Shown here: piece after piece, positions 3 to 7,900 of the stretch
Layout: every line of letters begins with the position of its first letter
How positions within the stretch are numbered: the first letter of the stretch is position 1
Origin: Methanosarcina vacuolata Z-761
GTDB taxonomy: Archaea; Halobacteriota; Methanosarcinia; Methanosarcinales; Methanosarcinaceae
DNA length: 64,000 nucleotides
Assembly: GCF_000969905.1 (NCBI RefSeq)
Contig: NZ_CP009520.1
Location: forward strand, 4,340,001 to 4,404,000
Reading direction: 5' to 3'
The notes under the pieces: generated by a model
Told to the model about the DNA's origin: nothing
Databases searched by the model: none
Seen by the model: only the letters and a program-made list of their open reading frames with translations
Position numbers and translations under genes: made by a program

Positions 3-209
3 GAAAGGGAAGATGTTGTAGAAGTCCGTGGAAAAGGGCTCATGATAGGAGTAGAGGTAAACCATCCCTGCAGCGATTTCGTGGACTTTGCAAGGGAACA
101 TGGAGTGCTTGTAAATTGCACATCGGAATCGGTGCTCCGTCTGGTTCCCCCACTTGTGATTACAAAAGAACAGATCGATAAGGTAGTTGATGTTCTTGAG
201 CAGGCCTGA
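3..209 (+). CDS. Acetylornithine-type aminotransferase, C-terminal end (partial)
   Basis: The last 68 codons of a gene that begins outside the window. The visible part, with the motif [13 protein letters not shown] followed by a hydrophobic [11 protein letters not shown] stretch, is typical of the C-terminal domain of class III PLP aminotransferases such as ArgD (N-acetylornithine aminotransferase, arginine biosynthesis). The PLP lysine and most of the enzyme are not visible, so the substrate is inferred only from this tail. The stop codon lies inside the start of hisC (about 20 bases of overlap), which suggests one transcript and translational coupling. Confidence 0.7.
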
Positions 210-1290
210 ATTGATAAAAAAAGAAATATTTGATATTGCAGAGTACGTTCCAGGGAAATCCATTGAAGAAATCGCTTCTGCCTATGGGCTTGACCCGGCC
301 TCAATTATTAAACTCGGCTCAAATGAAAACCCGCTTGGGCCCTCTCCAAAAGCTGTTCAGGCCCTGGTAGACACAGCTCCCTCAGCAAACATTTACCCCT
401 CAGCAGACGCGATTGAACTAAGGGAGGCCCTCTCGAAATACACAGGTTTCCCGGTTTCAAACCTCGTAGCCTCAGGGCCGGGAATGGACGGGTTACTTGA
501 CGGGCTTTGCAGGCTGGTTATTGAAAAAGGAGACGAAGTCATTGTTCCTACTCCTACTTTTGCCTATTACGAACTTCCGGCACGGGCATGCGGAGGAAAG
601 CCAGTCTTTGTCAGGAGAAGCCAGGACTTCTCGATAGATCCTGAAAAGATTCTGGAAGCTGCGTCTAGCAGGACAAAGATAATCTTCCTCTGCTCTCCCA
701 ATAATCCCTCAGGCAACCTCCTTCCCGAAAATGATCTGAGGAAAATACTTGAAAATACCAGAGCTCTTGTGTTCGTTGACGAGGCATATGTCGAATTTGC
801 GGACAGGAACCTTGCAGGGCTTGTAAGAGAATACGATAACCTTGTTGTGGGCAGAACCTTTTCCAAGGTATTTGGGCTCGCAGGCTTGCGCCTGGGCTAT
901 GGAATCATGCCCGAATGGCTGGCAAAAGAGTATATAAGAGCAGCAACACCGTTTTCAGTAAGTCTTCCGGCTTTAAAAGCAGGAATAGCTGCCCTTTCAG
1001 ATCCCGAACACCACAAAAGAAGCGTAGAAATCGCAAGAGAAGGCAGAAAATACCTGAGAGAAAAAATTCCCTTTAAGGTTTATCCTTCCCAGGCAAACTT
1101 CGTACTTGTGGATGTTTCTCCTATGAAAGCAAAAACCGTTACACAGAATCTCATGAAAAAGGGAATTATTGTACGTTCCTGTGATTCTTTCAGGGAGGCT
1201 GGAGATACGCTTATAAGGGTAACAGCTGGAACTCCGGAACAGAATGAAAAAGTTATCAGGGCTTTTGAAACTGTAAAGAAAGAGGGTTAA
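190..1290 (+). CDS. hisC: Histidinol-phosphate aminotransferase
   Basis: PLP-dependent aminotransferase (class I/II fold) that converts imidazole acetol-phosphate and glutamate to histidinol phosphate in histidine biosynthesis. The sequence shows the HisC landmarks: [13 protein letters not shown] near residue 41, the SPNNPSG loop near 169, the VDEAY segment near 196 and the PLP lysine at about K226 in [18 protein letters not shown]. The length of 366 residues is normal. The ATG at 190 has an AAGG-type ribosome site just upstream; a TTG at 196, giving an MSRPELIKK start, is also plausible. It overlaps the 3' end of the preceding aminotransferase gene. Confidence 0.92.
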
Positions 1291-1360
1291 AAGCCTTAAT
1301 TTCTTTACTTTAAGTTCTATTTTTACGTTGAGTTATGTTTTATGTTAAGATCTGTTTTTT

Positions 1361-1564
1361 ACTTTAATCCGTTTTCTACTTTAATCCGTTTTCTACTTTA
1401 ATCCGTTTTCTACTTTAATCCGTTTTCTACTTTAATCCGTTTTCTACTTTAATCCGTTTTCTACTTTAATCCGTTTTCTACTTTAATCCGTTTTCTACTT
1501 TAATCCGTTTTCTACTTTAATCCGTTTTCTACTTTAATCCGTTTTCTATTTTAATCCGTTTTCT
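1361..1564. repeat. 17-bp tandem repeat, 12 copies
   Basis: Twelve nearly perfect copies of ACTTTAATCCGTTTTCT run head to tail between the 3' ends of the convergent genes hisC and mptD, with a further partial unit. The last units carry a C to T change. There are no spacers, so this is a minisatellite and not a CRISPR array. No function is evident. It fills most of the 1291-1583 gap. Confidence 0.95.
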
Positions 1565-1583
1565 ATTTTAGAGGCTATCTATT

Positions 1584-1979
1584 TCAAACGTTTATCTCTT
1601 CGATTTCTAGAATTTTCATCAGCGGATAATTCAACTCGGAGTTATATTCCATTCCGACTTTTATCTTTGAAGAGCCGTATCTTACAGTTATTTTTACATT
1701 AAGCATAGGCCCCTGAAGCTCAGAATAACCGAATTCATCATTCAACTTGCCTTTCAACATATCTCTATCAATTTTTACGGAAATTTCTTCCACGTAGGGC
1801 TGGACTGAAATGCTTTCCTGGATAGCCTGTTCAAGGCTTGAAACAGTATTTAAATTTACAGGAGAACCCGTAAATTGATGGTAAAGGGCTCCTAGTTTTA
1901 TTCCTGCCTCAAAAAGTGCATTATCTCTATCAGTTGCTTTTTCTTGGACCAAACAAATCACTTCCTTCTTGGAATTCAT
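1584..1979 (-). CDS. mptD: Archaeal dihydroneopterin aldolase MptD
   Basis: Small protein (131 residues) matching the archaeal dihydroneopterin aldolase family (MJ1585-like). This enzyme cleaves 7,8-dihydroneopterin to 6-hydroxymethyl-dihydropterin and glycolaldehyde on the way to tetrahydrosarcinapterin or methanopterin. The family signature FEAGIKLGALYHQFTG is present, with His34 in that motif and Gln60 in SVQPYV, at the positions of the residues reported as catalytic in MJ1585 (His35, Gln61). It is the last gene of the minus-strand run artA-asd-pssA-mptD, 26 bases after pssA. No clear ribosome site precedes the ATG. The assignment is from recalled motifs and not from a search. Confidence 0.78.
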   Translation of the reverse strand: MNSKKEVICLVQEKATDRDNALFEAGIKLGALYHQFTGSPVNLNTVSSLEQAIQESISVQPYVEEISVKIDRDMLKGKLNDEFGYSELQGPMLNVKITVRYGSSKIKVGMEYNSELNYPLMKILEIEEINV

Positions 1980-2005
1980 TAATTGACGTTTCGGACAAAT
2001 TGGTT

Positions 2006-2797
2006 TTATTGTTTTTCTTTCCCGATTCTCAGTCCTTTATTTCGATATTCCTTATTACCCAGATTGCTTAAGACAGGGACTTTGAAAAAAGGACAAAAGA
2101 TGTAGATCAACATCAGGATAAAAGGCAGGATCGAGAAAATTCGCATATATTCGATATTATACAGGTAGAGAAGCATAGTTATTCCAAAAATGGAAGCTAT
2201 GAAAACGAGAACCTTGACATTCTTGATCTTCGGATAATTTACCGAACTCACCATAAGAATAGAGAGACAAAGGGTAAGTGCTAGAAGAAAGTCTATCTTG
2301 ACAAGGTTTTCACTTAACAACATATATGTGACAAGCATAACGCAGCCTGCAGTAATGGGAAGGCCTTCAAATCCAGTTTTACTGGCAGTCATGGAATTGA
2401 AGCGTGCGAGTCTGAGCACACCGCAGATAGCATAGAAAACCGGAAATACCGCAACAAGAGGGTCTGGATCTCCCACAAGAGGGTTTATTTGTCCAAACTG
2501 CAAGTATATGAGAAGAGCAGGAGCTACCCCAAAAGAAACTGCATCTGCCAGGGAATCAAGTTGTTCCCCGAGTTCTCCTCCTTTAAACCTCCTGGCAATG
2601 TACCCATCCGCTCCATCTGCAATTGCTGCAACAAGAAGTAAGATCAAAGCCAGGACAAAACCATTATGGTTTGCCCCAGTTTGAAGTGTGGCAGCCTGGA
2701 CTGTAGCCTGAGCAGCTACTGCAATTGAGCCGATTCCACAGATAAGGTTCAAAAGAGAGACCAGGTCCGGGAGTCTTAACATTTGAAATACGTTCAT
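2006..2797 (-). CDS. pssA: CDP-archaeol (CDP-diacylglycerol) serine phosphatidyltransferase
   Basis: Integral membrane CDP-alcohol phosphotransferase that joins L-serine to CDP-archaeol to give archaetidylserine. The family motif DGxxAR...GxxxDxxxD is present at about residues 66-87 (DGYIAR, then GEQLDSLAD), with several hydrophobic helices on both sides. The length of 263 residues is normal. I place the start at the ATG at 2797, two bases after the asd stop codon; an in-frame TTG at 2803 would instead overlap that stop by four bases. Either way it is coupled to asd, which acts on its product. Confidence 0.9.
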   Translation of the reverse strand: MNVFQMLRLPDLVSLLNLICGIGSIAVAAQATVQAATLQTGANHNGFVLALILLLVAAIADGADGYIARRFKGGELGEQLDSLADAVSFGVAPALLIYLQFGQINPLVGDPDPLVAVFPVFYAICGVLRLARFNSMTASKTGFEGLPITAGCVMLVTYMLLSENLVKIDFLLALTLCLSILMVSSVNYPKIKNVKVLVFIASIFGITMLLYLYNIEYMRIFSILPFILMLIYIFCPFFKVPVLSNLGNKEYRNKGLRIGKEKQ

Positions 2798-2799
2798 GT

Positions 2800-3423
2800 T
2801 CAAAAGTCCCTATCATTTTTTATTGTTGCTATAATAGTCTTGCCTGCAAGTACCCGTTCCCCTTTCCGTACTGTAATTTCAAAATCATGAGGAATCGTTA
2901 CATCAACCCTTGATCCGAAGCGAATCATTCCAATTCGCTGTCCCTGCTCGATCATATCATTTACTTGAGAATAAGAGACAATTCGCCTGGCAATAGTGCC
3001 TGCAATCTGCGTGACACTAACATCCCCATACTTGCTGTGAATAATAAACTCGTTTCTTTCGTTTCTTTCAGAGTCTTTCCAGTAAGCAGGAAGATATCCG
3101 CCTTTCTTGTAAGTGATTTCCCTGATAGTCCCCGAAATCGGAGCTCTATTTACATGTACATTCTGGAGAAACATGAAAATACAGATTTTCCGGCCTCGAA
3201 TATCTATGACAGTTCCATCAGCCGGGGAAATCATATAAGTATCCGAAACTTCAACCTTTCTTTCTGGATCTCTAAAAAAAAGAACCATAAAGAAAGTCAG
3301 TGACATTGCTAAGTAAGCAGCGTGGTTTAAGTGGGAGCTGTTCATTGCCTTAGAGAGAATTGCAAATAATGCAGTAATAGACGCAGCTGTAAAAAGCCAG
3401 GGTTCCGAACCTTTTGCAAGCAT
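2800..3423 (-). CDS. asd: Archaetidylserine decarboxylase proenzyme
   Basis: Pyruvoyl-dependent decarboxylase of the short (PSD-II-like) class, turning archaetidylserine into archaetidylethanolamine. The SPADG motif (residues 66-70), the FLQNVHVNRAPISG histidine segment (about 85-98) and the self-cleavage pair Gly170-Ser171 in RFGSRVDV are all present; cleavage there would create the pyruvoyl group on Ser171. An N-terminal hydrophobic region probably anchors it in the membrane. The length of 207 residues is typical. It sits five bases after artA and directly before pssA. Confidence 0.9.
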   Translation of the reverse strand: MLAKGSEPWLFTAASITALFAILSKAMNSSHLNHAAYLAMSLTFFMVLFFRDPERKVEVSDTYMISPADGTVIDIRGRKICIFMFLQNVHVNRAPISGTIREITYKKGGYLPAYWKDSERNERNEFIIHSKYGDVSVTQIAGTIARRIVSYSQVNDMIEQGQRIGMIRFGSRVDVTIPHDFEITVRKGERVLAGKTIIATIKNDRDF

Positions 3424-3428
3424 TTCTC

Positions 3429-4298
3429 TTAATCCCCCTCGGACCTTAGCAGAAGAGATTTCAATTCATTAGAAAGAATGACCCAGAGGCCATCAATCAT
3501 TCCGAACAGCTCGGGCAGAATCCGGAGTACTGCATATGAAATTACAAAGAGAGCAATGCCTGAACCCGCTTTTGCGATATAGTTATGCGCAATTATAAAA
3601 CTATCAGCCCCAAACCATTGCTCTCCATAAGCAACTACCACGAAAATGTCCCTGATAAGATTAAGGATATAGATCACGGGTACTGACACAATAAACGCCA
3701 TAGCCAGTCGACTAAGGGGAGCTCTTACTGCACATATAAGCCCCATAAAGAGAGCAATACTTTCAATAGCCGTACAGGCGAGAATGATTTCCACTGTATA
3801 CCCATTAAGTGATATCATATTCCAGGCTTTCATATACGCAGGAATGTCTAGATACTGAAGAACCCAGGTAACCTGAGAAGTAACCCCTCCTATAATCAAG
3901 GTATTCAGAGAGGCGAAATTCGCAAACGGGAAATAAACAAGAGCTCCGAGTGCACTGGCACTTGTAAGCATCGAGGTTATGTCAAGGGAATCAGCCTCAC
4001 TCTGATCTGAAAATTTGGAGTGCAACACTTCTCTATTATTAATTATCTTTAGAGGACCTTTTCTGTACTCCAGAAACATGATATACGCTACAAGTAGACA
4101 AAATAGGGCTACTACTATTGTTAGGAGCACATTAGCATAGTCCATAATTTTGAGATAATGAAGAGGCTGATAACTCCAGTGGATGGAAAATACACCCCAT
4201 CCAATCCCTCCAATAAGTTTACGAACCCTTGAAGTTCTGGGGATGACGGATGACGCAACCATTAACCCGACTGCGAGCCAGAGTATACTTTCTATCAT
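3429..4298 (-). CDS. artA: Archaeosortase A
   Basis: Polytopic membrane transpeptidase of the exosortase/archaeosortase family. In haloarchaea ArtA removes a C-terminal PGF-CTERM tripartite signal and the processed protein receives a lipid anchor. The expected active-site residues are visible: Cys175 in ILACTAIESIAL, Arg216 in NLIRDIFVV and His238 in IIAHNYIAKAGS, each next to a predicted transmembrane helix. The 289-residue length agrees. It heads an apparent operon with asd and pssA, the genes whose products are known to be needed for ArtA processing in Haloferax. No PGF-CTERM substrate is encoded in this window. Confidence 0.88.
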   Translation of the reverse strand: MIESILWLAVGLMVASSVIPRTSRVRKLIGGIGWGVFSIHWSYQPLHYLKIMDYANVLLTIVVALFCLLVAYIMFLEYRKGPLKIINNREVLHSKFSDQSEADSLDITSMLTSASALGALVYFPFANFASLNTLIIGGVTSQVTWVLQYLDIPAYMKAWNMISLNGYTVEIILACTAIESIALFMGLICAVRAPLSRLAMAFIVSVPVIYILNLIRDIFVVVAYGEQWFGADSFIIAHNYIAKAGSGIALFVISYAVLRILPELFGMIDGLWVILSNELKSLLLRSEGD

Positions 4299-4925: not shown

Positions 4926-5342
4926 ATGAAACCCAAAACTCCTAGTTTAACCGTTGATACCGTAATCCTCTTTAAAAACAGGCTTGTGCTTGTGAAGAGA
5001 AAAAATCCCCCATATCAGGGAAAATTTGCCCTTCCTGGAGGTTTCGTAGAAATCGGGGAAACTACAGAAAAAGCAGCAGCTAGGGAAGCTTTTGAAGAAA
5101 CAGGCCTTTCTGTAGAGCTTATCAAACTTGTAGGAGTCTACTCTGATCCTGACCGCGACCCCAGAGGACATACGGTTTCAGTGTGTTACCTTGCAAAGGG
5201 ATTTGGAGAGCTGAAATCCGGGTCTGATGCCGCTTCTGCCGATCTTTTTGAGCTTGAGTCCGTTCCTGAACTGGCTTTTGACCACAATAAAATTATAAAT
5301 GATGCAAAAAGTGATATTAATGCAATTCTGCCCCAAATGTAA
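4926..5342 (+). CDS. Nudix hydrolase
   Basis: A 138-residue Nudix-fold pyrophosphohydrolase. The Nudix box is intact: GGFVEIGETTEKAAAREAF followed by EETGL fits GX5EX7REUXEEXGU at about residues 38-60, so metal-dependent cleavage of an NDP-X substrate is expected. The close match to the ADP-ribose/MutT group (PGGFVE, YSDPDRDPRG) suggests nucleotide sanitation or ADP-ribose hydrolysis, but the substrate cannot be fixed from sequence. Its 3' end overlaps the start of the TFS gene by 23 bases, so the two are probably co-translated. Confidence 0.88.
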   Translation: MKPKTPSLTVDTVILFKNRLVLVKRKNPPYQGKFALPGGFVEIGETTEKAAAREAFEETGLSVELIKLVGVYSDPDRDPRGHTVSVCYLAKGFGELKSGSDAASADLFELESVPELAFDHNKIINDAKSDINAILPQM

Positions 5343-5634
5343 AAGTATGATGTTTCCTAAAAATGGGAATTTTGAGTGTAGAAAATGTGGAAACATAATA
5401 CCTATAAAAAGTGATGAAAAAAGTTTTGTCTCCAGAGCCAAGATAGATGATCACGAAATAGTGGTTCTGGAAGGTGAGCAGACTTCAGGCCTGCCGACAA
5501 CAAGTGCAAAATGCCCAGAATGTGGGAACAATACTGCAGCCTGGTGGCTCAGACAACTGAGGTCTGCCGATGAATCCGAAACCCGCTTTTTCAAGTGTAC
5601 GAAATGCGGATTTACCTGGAGAGAATACGACTGA
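5320..5634 (+). CDS. Transcription cleavage factor TFS
   Basis: Archaeal TFIIS/RpoM-like factor of 104 residues that rescues backtracked RNA polymerase by stimulating transcript cleavage. Both zinc ribbons are visible: CPKCKSM and CRKCGN at the N-terminus, then CPECGN and CTKCGFTWREYD at the C-terminus. The acidic hairpin RSADESET that reaches the polymerase active site is intact. I start at the ATG at 5320, which gives the family N-terminus MQFCPKC; longer in-frame starts run into the Nudix gene. The overlap with the Nudix gene implies co-expression. Confidence 0.92.
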   Translation: MQFCPKCKSMMFPKNGNFECRKCGNIIPIKSDEKSFVSRAKIDDHEIVVLEGEQTSGLPTTSAKCPECGNNTAAWWLRQLRSADESETRFFKCTKCGFTWREYD

Positions 5635-5871
5635 AATTTAATTGCCCTTCTATTCCCCCTTGAAAAGTACATTTCCCGGAAAACTAGACCCATCAGGCTA
5701 CAGCTTCCTTTCTGCTTTAAGCAGAGCCTGAAGCCGCCCTGTTTTCTGACCAAGATTTATATAGTTGCCGGGAGTTTGAATCTAATGGTTTTTCCGATTC
5801 CAGAACCCTGTTTGATCACATTTGGAGAATTAATTCTTCAGATGAGCTGGAATTTAGGAATCTGTAAAGAA

Positions 5872-5881
5872 ATTTATATAT
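5872..5881 (+). promoter_or_regulatory. TATA box of pcn
   Basis: The stretch ATTTATATAT lies about 50 bases before the pcn start codon, in an otherwise mixed-sequence spacer. It is the best archaeal TATA-box candidate here and would place the transcript start near 5905. The GGAG ribosome site follows at about 5921. Inferred from position and composition only. Confidence 0.5.
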
Positions 5882-5931
5882 CTCAAGGGTAATAAATAGT
5901 TTAGACTTAAATTTATTATTGGAGAAGAAAT

Positions 5932-6669
5932 ATGTTTAAGGCAGCAATTAATGCAGAGCTTCTGAAAGACGCGGTTGCCGCACTAGCTGTAATTGTAGAT
6001 GAGGTCAGATTCAAGATAAACCCGGAAGGTATTTCGGTAAAAGCCGTTGATCCTGCCAACGTTGCAATGGGAATTTTCGAGCTTGGGTCATCTGCTTTCG
6101 ACGAGTATAACGCTGATGAATGTGAAATCGGAGTTGATCTGAACAAGATTATGGACCTGCTGGGAATCGCAGATAAGAACGACACAGTCCGGATGGAACT
6201 TGAAGAAGGGAATCACAAACTTCTGATTGATGTCGGAGGACTGTCTTATACACTCTCTCTTCTCGATCCTTCTACAATTCGGGCAGAGCCAAGAGTTCCA
6301 CAACTTGAATTGCCTGCTAAAGTCGTCCTTAACGGTACAGACCTCAGACGTGCTGTTAAAGCTGCCGAAAAAATAAGCGACCATATGCTCATGGGAGTTT
6401 CGGACGACACATTCTATATGGAAGCAAAAGGCGATACCGACAAGGTTCGTCTCGAGATGGGCAGGGATCAGCTAATCGACCTGAAGGCAGGAGAAGCATG
6501 TTCTCTTTTCTCTCTGGATTATCTGACCGATATAGTCAAACCCACGAATAAAATCAATGAAGTTACTCTTTCCCTTGGAAAAGACTTCCCAATACTCATA
6601 GATTTCGAAATTGCGAACGGTGCAGGAAGGATTTCGTACCTCCTGGCTCCAAGAATTGAGTCGGACTGA
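5932..6669 (+). CDS. pcn: DNA sliding clamp PCNA
   Basis: Homotrimeric processivity clamp for replicative polymerases, ligase and FEN1. The 245-residue protein matches archaeal PCNA along its length: an N-terminal FKAAINAELLKDAVAAL, the SVKAVDPANVAMGIFEL segment of domain 1, the interdomain loop near residues 120-130, and the C-terminal PILIDFEIANGAGRISYLLAPR. A GGAG ribosome site precedes the ATG. The stop codon is one base before the priL start, so clamp and primase large subunit are made together. Confidence 0.95.
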   Translation: MFKAAINAELLKDAVAALAVIVDEVRFKINPEGISVKAVDPANVAMGIFELGSSAFDEYNADECEIGVDLNKIMDLLGIADKNDTVRMELEEGNHKLLIDVGGLSYTLSLLDPSTIRAEPRVPQLELPAKVVLNGTDLRRAVKAAEKISDHMLMGVSDDTFYMEAKGDTDKVRLEMGRDQLIDLKAGEACSLFSLDYLTDIVKPTNKINEVTLSLGKDFPILIDFEIANGAGRISYLLAPRIESD

Positions 6670-6670
6670 A

Positions 6671-7825
6671 ATGGACGAGGAACATATCGCTCTTTACCCA
6701 TTTGCTTCAGAAGTATCTGCTTATGTAGAAAGCCTTAGAGTCTCGCTAGAGAGTTTGCTTAATTCTCCAGCTTTTCGGAGATCTCGAGTTCGCGGGATGG
6801 AAAGAGTAATGCAATCCATCGAAGGAGAGATTGAAAAATCGCTCATAAAAGATGAAAGCTGGCTTCTTTCCGAAACTCTCTCTTATCCTTTTGCTCAAAT
6901 TCTGGTCGCTTGCGTAGATGACCAGTTATTCACCAAACGATACGCACTAAAAGAAGCAGAAGCAGCCTCAAAATGGCTCGAAAAAGAAAGTACTGATTTT
7001 TTGCTTGAATTCGGGGAGGATTTTGGGATTCAAGCAGAAGCTGAAGAGTTACAGTTCAGTATGCATTTTGCAGATTATATACGCTTTTCTTCTTCGATAA
7101 GGGAACCAATATGGAAATTAACAAATCGACAGCTTCGATCCGGAATGGTCGTAGTTATGAAAAAAGACTTTGTAAGACTCCTTCAAGAAGCGATCAAAGA
7201 AAGAATAGAAAAATCATTCCCCATTCCCAAAATCCCTTCTGAAGTATCAAGTTTCTGCGCCCCTTATGTTGCTGAAATAAAAGATAAGTTTGAGGTCCAC
7301 AAGAAAAAATTCGGGACAACGGACTTTGGTGTAGTGGAACCCGAGCTCTTTCCCCCCTGTATATCCCATGCCCTTGCAAACGTACAGGGCGGAGTGAATC
7401 TTGCCCATTCTATGCGTTTTGCCATGACCTCCTTCCTGCTCAGCGTGGGAATGTCAGTGGATGAAATTCTTAACCTTTTCAATGTCTCTCCTGATTTTAA
7501 CGCGGAATTAACCCTTTATCAGATAGAACATATTGCAGGCGCAACAGGAAACGTATACAAGCCTCCTGCATGTGACACTATGAGAACATATGGGAACTGC
7601 ATAGGTAAAGACCGATTGTGTGAAAAAATCAGTCATCCTCTGGCATACTACGAGAAGAAAATATATCTGAGAAATAAAGAAAAAGAAATGGAAAAAGAGA
7701 AGGAAATGGAAAAAGGGAAGGAAAAACAGGAAAAAAAAGAGAAGGGGAAGGAAATGGAAAAAGAGAAGGAAAAACAAGAAGAAAAAGGGAAGGGAAAGGA
7801 AATAGAAAAAGAGAAGAAAAAATAA
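6671..7825 (+). CDS. priL: DNA primase large subunit PriL, with polar repeat tail
   Basis: Non-catalytic large subunit of archaeal primase, which holds a 4Fe-4S cluster and shapes primer synthesis by PriS. The conserved C-terminal domain is clear: SSFCAPYV, the helical GVNLAHSMRFAMTSFLLS segment, YQIEHIAGATG, and CDTMRTYGNC with a further cysteine in RLCEKISHPL, giving four cluster ligands. I start at the ATG at 6671, one base after pcn; the longer frame would overlap pcn. After about residue 335 the protein runs into a tail of Lys/Glu/Met/Gln repeats unlike the family. The purine repeat continues in the same frame past the TAA at 7823. Confidence 0.93.
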   Translation: MDEEHIALYPFASEVSAYVESLRVSLESLLNSPAFRRSRVRGMERVMQSIEGEIEKSLIKDESWLLSETLSYPFAQILVACVDDQLFTKRYALKEAEAASKWLEKESTDFLLEFGEDFGIQAEAEELQFSMHFADYIRFSSSIREPIWKLTNRQLRSGMVVVMKKDFVRLLQEAIKERIEKSFPIPKIPSEVSSFCAPYVAEIKDKFEVHKKKFGTTDFGVVEPELFPPCISHALANVQGGVNLAHSMRFAMTSFLLSVGMSVDEILNLFNVSPDFNAELTLYQIEHIAGATGNVYKPPACDTMRTYGNCIGKDRLCEKISHPLAYYEKKIYLRNKEKEMEKEKEMEKGKEKQEKKEKGKEMEKEKEKQEEKGKGKEIEKEKKK

Positions 7826-7900
7826 GAAGAAAAGAGGAAGGAAATAGAAAAAGAGAAGGAAAAACAAGAAGAAAAGAGGAAGGAAAGGAAAAAGGCATAA
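7675..7900 (+). repeat. Polypurine coding repeat spanning the priL stop
   Basis: Degenerate purine repeat (units like GAAAAAGAGAAGGAAATG) encoding the Lys/Glu tail of PriL and extending 75 bases beyond its stop codon. After the TAA at 7823-7825 the same frame stays open for 24 codons to a TAA at 7898-7900. The copy at the stop reads AAAAAATAAGAAGAAAA, while the later copy reads GAAAAACAAGAAGAAAA, so a single C to T change appears to have made the stop. Confidence 0.85.

Follow-up and report, generated by a model that had tools for sequence, protein, structure and literature searches.

The archaeosortase gene of Methanosarcina vacuolata Z-761 belongs to a row of four genes, artA-asd-pssA-mptD, that is old and widely conserved in the order, and that also occurs in a number of other families within the class and phylum. 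We consider it rather probable that this row, likely one transcription unit, serves a system in which ArtA anchors PGF-CTERM proteins, archaetidylserine and archaetidylethanolamine form both bulk lipid and the pool from which the anchor is drawn, and mptD is a passenger.

Organization of the gene row

The window analyzed here is the whole 64,000-nucleotide stretch of contig NZ_CP009520.1 (positions 4,340,001 to 4,404,000) from a host genome of 4.56 Mb in two contigs. Coordinates refer to the window unless a contig or locus is named. Most neighbouring proteins are 80-90% identical to genomes from the same genus group. An earlier note on this DNA had described artA, asd, pssA and mptD as packed in that order, and curated profiles confirmed their coordinates and identities:

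3429..4298, minus strand: artA, archaeosortase A, 289 aa (TIGR04125, 261 bits versus a cut-off of 75)
2800..3423, minus strand: asd (pssD), archaetidylserine decarboxylase, 207 aa (PF02666, 140.6 bits; NF003685, 286 versus 183)
2006..2803, minus strand: pssA, archaetidylserine synthase, a CDP-alcohol phosphotransferase (TIGR04217, 284 bits versus 200)
1584..1979, minus strand: mptD, archaeal-type dihydroneopterin aldolase, last gene of the row, 131 aa (PF04038, 149 bits versus 25)
1350..1570, no strand: tandem array of 13 copies of a 17-bp unit, between mptD and the converging hisC (98% matches in Tandem Repeats Finder)
187..1290, plus strand: hisC, convergent flank outside the system (TIGR01141, 335 bits; family-wide synteny)
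4926..6669, plus strand: divergent flank outside the system, with a Nudix ORF (PF00293) and two ORFs named by their sequence only, one transcription-factor-S-like and one PCNA-like (family-wide synteny)

On the minus strand, five bases separate the artA stop from the asd start, the asd stop overlaps the TTG start of pssA (265 aa, or 263 aa from the alternative start ATG 2797), and 26 bases lie between the pssA stop and the mptD start. The four genes are tightly packed and most likely form one transcription unit. Residues typical of each enzyme were retained throughout the alignments, i.e., the CDP-alcohol transferase motif D63-G-x-D66-G...D83...D87 of PssA (24/24 sequences), D69, H90 and the self-cleavage motif G170-S171 of Asd (18/18), and E24, K28, H34, Q60, Y85 and Y118 of MptD (18/18). 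The repeat downstream of mptD has the unit ATCCGTTTTCTACTTTA, and this exact 17-bp unit was absent from every locus of other genomes with which it was compared. The window is rich in other simple arrays (46 rows from Tandem Repeats Finder), and a lysine/glutamate-rich low-complexity repeat (7676-7894) forms the C-terminal end of the ORF that follows the PCNA-like one (6611-7825, plus strand).

Conservation across the order and phylum

Adjacency within the order was tallied from 186 genomes, and pairs were counted only where both genes had been located. With 1.5 kb as the limit, artA was followed by asd on the same strand in 128 of 128 genomes and pssA by mptD in 90 of 129; asd was followed by pssA on the same strand in 124 of 124. 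The 80 named loci agreed with the row, five Methanimicrococcus loci excepted. Two genomes (G179 and G181) in which all four genes were missing together, maybe through one assembly gap, were excluded from the argument. Outside the order, artA-asd contact was found in all inspected loci that carry an asd row, from families f6 (which we take to include Methanothrix thermoacetophila), f8 (presumably including Archaeoglobus fulgidus, A. profundus and A. veneficus), f10, f13, f15 and f25, and mptD followed pssA in most of the loci inspected in these families. The linkage of artA, asd and pssA is far beyond chance, and the order-wide row supports a tie of ArtA to archaetidylserine and archaetidylethanolamine synthesis. 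Co-operon position is in itself weak evidence of joint function.

The attachment of a methanopterin gene, which the earlier note had called unexpected, turned out to be ordinary in these lineages. mptD is a same-strand member of the row in seven families (f1, f5, f6, f8, f10, f15 and f25), its ORF often overlapping, and also occurs in the Methanoperedens row; its presence across so many families means that the attachment is old. This persistence could be taken to indicate that MptD is functionally part of the row, e.g., by matching cofactor supply to envelope growth. We regard that as very unlikely, since mptD has departed repeatedly (it lies out of the row in f2, f3, f4 and g10, and 5.5 kb off in g7) with artA-asd-pssA still together. 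To our knowledge, MptD and the enzymes of the row share no substrate. MptD would most likely be a passenger that was inherited with the row and makes a methanopterin-type cofactor.

Relation to known systems

That artA, pssA and asd are linked in Methanosarcina has been reported before. Haft 2012, as cited in PMC7157517, noted that artA neighbours pssA in Methanosarcina and in further methanogens, and Abdul-Halim 2020 added pssD. That synteny (Haft 2012; PMC7157517) comprises the same three adjacent genes, in the genus to which the window belongs, and was the motive for the gene tests in Haloferax. According to PMC7157517, loss of either pssA or pssD in Haloferax blocks ArtA cleavage of HVO_0405, and lipidation of SLG is lost without pssA, which agrees with the earlier note that ArtA processing there needs PssA and PssD. 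What does not hold up is its use of the linkage in a methanogen as a fresh argument: because the Methanosarcina synteny prompted the Haloferax work, explaining the former by the latter is circular (PMC7157517). The same source reports that archaetidylethanolamine as donor was called a speculative model by its own authors, and that archaetidic acid had once been named as the attached lipid on the basis of alkali-treated material. No mention of mptD in the Methanosarcina synteny was found in the consulted sections of the published account (PMC7157517). Likewise, no published description of how widely the row occurs in other families, or of its absence in asd-less lineages, was found in the literature searched.

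The system in Haloferax volcanii (ArtA, HvPssA and HvPssD) resembles that of the window in its ArtA family, in PGF-CTERM substrates that include an S-layer protein, and in its PssA and PssD homologues. On the other hand, artA, pssA and pssD are unlinked in haloarchaea and adjacent in the window. In addition, unlike their H. volcanii counterparts, PssA and Asd of the window fall outside the NCBIfam haloarchaeal sorting subfamilies, scoring under the cut-offs of NF038086 (protein sorting system archaetidylserine synthase, 92 versus 200 bits) and NF038088 (protein sorting system archaetidylserine decarboxylase, 164 versus 240 bits). Asd is also under the cut-off of the TIGR00164 archaetidylserine decarboxylase model (181 versus 230 bits).

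PGF-CTERM proteins and lipid enzymes of M. vacuolata

A single archaeosortase passed the family cut-off in the genome search. With the curated model TIGR04126, only 2 PGF-CTERM proteins exceeded the cut-off. A genus profile seeded with six tails from M. vacuolata itself gave 21 at E<0.01, the six seeds included; the curated model alone is therefore misleading as a substrate count. PF18204 was over its cut-off in 4 of 6 PGF-CTERM proteins checked, and two are S-layer proteins of the PF07752 family. The 21 matches agree with the average of about 20 PGF-CTERM proteins in Methanosarcinales (PMC9723798). The earlier note had proposed searching the proteome for such tails and had named their absence as an outcome that would refute its reading. 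With some 20 proteins found, two of them S-layer proteins, that refutation does not occur, and the ArtA/PGF-CTERM system looks functional. By analogy with the Haloferax reaction, ArtA would cut and anchor these approximately 20 secreted proteins, the two S-layer proteins among them.

As judged from their families, PssA would make archaetidylserine and Asd would convert it to archaetidylethanolamine. Methanosarcina is known to contain serine and ethanolamine ether lipids. Only one of the three CDP-alcohol transferases in the genome is a TIGR04217 match, and there is one lipid-type asd; the same enzymes thus also supply any bulk serine or ethanolamine lipid. A second PF02666 match (C2:4082645-4083247) is probably not a lipid asd. 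It lies in a 451-aa protein (C2:4082573-4083928, minus strand; L047:2074-3429) that adjoins deiminase-like and peptidase-like ORFs and is, as far as its sequence tells, probably a PSD-like small-molecule decarboxylase.

These observations lend themselves to another account, in which the row is at heart an operon for bulk lipid and includes artA by chance, PssA and Asd supply the membrane with archaetidylserine and archaetidylethanolamine, ArtA uses whichever lipid is abundant, and none of the enzymes is dedicated to anchoring. The single copies of pssA and asd, their scores under the "protein sorting system" models and the ether lipids of the genus all fit it. That artA, asd and pssA are invariably adjacent in several families speaks for a tie to artA itself, and we judge this bulk-lipid account to be rather unlikely. 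We favour the anchoring row, in which archaetidylserine and archaetidylethanolamine would probably double as bulk membrane lipids and as the ArtA pool, ArtA taking from it a lipid with an amine group to put in place of the tail it cuts off.

Relatives with ArtA and without asd

Archaetidylethanolamine is the likeliest ArtA donor in this organism in our analysis. To this extent the donor named in the earlier note is plausible, although the linkage from which it had been argued is no demonstration. The proposal cannot be extended to the phylum as a whole. Among 118 genomes sampled evenly from the phylum, each at least 95% complete, ArtA was over the cut-off in all 118 and PF02666 in 85, leaving 33 with ArtA and without any PSD. 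The 33 (presumably including Methanoculleus marisnigri, Methanoregula boonei and two Methanocella species) comprise all sampled members of f7 (7), f12 (4), f16 (2), f17 (4), f18 (1), f21 (2), f22 (3) and f23 (3), as well as 7 of the 8 from f14. With so many ArtA-bearing relatives lacking asd, archaetidylethanolamine is not universal as a donor.

Closer to Methanosarcina, a PF02666 gene was not found in any of 6 Methanimicrococcus (g6) genomes, among them that of the isolate M. blatticola DSM 13328 (G084); absence from incomplete MAGs weighs less than absence from the isolate genome and from the phylum draw. artA is kept in this genus at another location, and pssA and mptD are still paired. The M. 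blatticola system (PMC9723798) is like that of the window in its ArtA, its PssA-mptD pair and its PGF-CTERM proteins, and differs in that asd is lost, artA lies away from pssA and substrates are far fewer. A profile search still detected PGF-CTERM tails in M. blatticola, for which 5 such proteins have been reported (PMC9723798). A similar case was found among gut methanogens of the group g8. G101 carries artA-pssA-mptD with 18 bases from artA to pssA and no asd between them (L075:6364-8399), whereas artA-asd-pssA is intact in the rumen genome G102 (L076:162-3181). The trees conflict on whether asd was lost once or twice in this gut clade: the pssA tree groups G101 with the asd-bearing G102 (support 95/91), and the ArtA tree does not (87/85, with long branches).

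The donor could accordingly be archaetidylserine or some other lipid, with Asd serving only the membrane balance and the Haloferax model inapplicable to methanogens. Archaetidylserine also bears a primary amine, and it is a possible donor because ArtA and PssA outlasted the loss of Asd in these gut relatives; with Asd dispensable in ArtA-bearing relatives, a lipid other than archaetidylethanolamine may be the donor in M. vacuolata as well. The 33 genomes, the retention of artA and pssA in Methanimicrococcus and G101, and the persistent tails of M. blatticola all point this way. So does Methanospirillum (Methanomicrobiales). It has an S-layer protein with a PGF-CTERM tail, presumed to be anchored in the membrane (PMC11641113), and the head groups measured in its lipids comprise aminopentanetetrols, phosphoglycerol and sugars, with neither ethanolamine nor serine among those reported (PMC11346949). 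Against it stands the block of ArtA cleavage by pssD loss in Haloferax (PMC7157517). Moreover, most asd-less genomes belong to other lineages with a different ArtA residue pair, so that a switch of donor may have occurred in those lineages and not in Methanosarcina. On balance, we find it unlikely that the donor in M. vacuolata is a lipid other than archaetidylethanolamine.

An operon for a replacement head group around artA was considered for the asd-less lineages and rejected, as the neighbours encode RibD_C, SppA, TruD, ThiM/ThiE and Taw2. In the examined loci of f7, f14, f17, f22 and f23, artA adjoins a CDP-alcohol transferase gene, mostly tail-to-tail (L197-L202, L206-L209 and L211, with RibD_C and SppA nearby in the scanned loci). 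The transferase of L199 is closest to archaetidylinositol phosphate synthase, under the cut-off of that model, and the position of this gene on the strand opposite to artA speaks against co-transcription. In the Methanocella-type locus L203, artA follows the thiamine genes thiM-thiE (L204, with neighbours of the same size, is similar in layout), so that neighbours of artA are not always functional partners.

ArtA residues and a lineage signature

ArtA of the window retains C175 and R216, the counterparts of the Haloferax active-site residues C173 and R214, as do all 47 aligned sequences. Haloferax Arg253 would correspond by spacing, with the haloarchaea-like ArtA L216 as proxy, to N239 of the window ArtA, next to H238. 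Both H238 and K243 are invariant in a 39-row alignment, and H238 may stand in for Arg253. In the haloarchaea-like ArtA examined, H238/N239 and E179/K243 are replaced by D/R and G/Q, respectively. The structure model is fair (pLDDT 86.5), and neither sequence nor fold search found a solved structure related to ArtA.

Positions 179 and 243 (window numbering) lie near the active site and vary among the lineages. Glu179 and Lys243 occur together in 162 of 182 ArtA sequences, a group that takes in the recent asd losers and, with one exception, the asd-row ArtA that were examined. ArtA from the asd-less f7, f12, f14, f17, f21, f22 and f23 has Gln (once Thr) and Glu instead, together with a loop insertion. 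Exceptions are f18 (G201), asd-less yet with Glu/Lys, and the Gln/Lys sequences L231 and L234, the latter from f8 with asd. Since the pattern follows lineages and reflects only a few independent events, the signature suggests a change of donor and is no proof of one.

A tentative extension, which we would not yet rate above a possibility, is that donors are lineage-specific and accompanied by changed catalytic surroundings of ArtA. Under it, E179/K243 would mark the artA-asd-pssA lineages and recent asd losers, Methanimicrococcus using archaetidylserine. Q/E with the loop insertion would mark the asd-less Methanomicrobiales and Methanocella-type lineages, which would use a non-ethanolamine lipid, e.g., from the artA-adjacent inositol-phosphate-type transferase.

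Implications

For the lipid that an archaeosortase attaches there is one model only, and it names archaetidylethanolamine. On PGF-CTERM proteins of asd-less lineages, the lipid cannot be archaetidylethanolamine from a PSD-type enzyme. These ArtA-bearing lineages, most notably the cultivated M. blatticola and the Methanomicrobiales, are natural tests of the lipid used by ArtA, and the general assumption of archaetidylethanolamine thereby becomes a question that mass spectrometry can answer.
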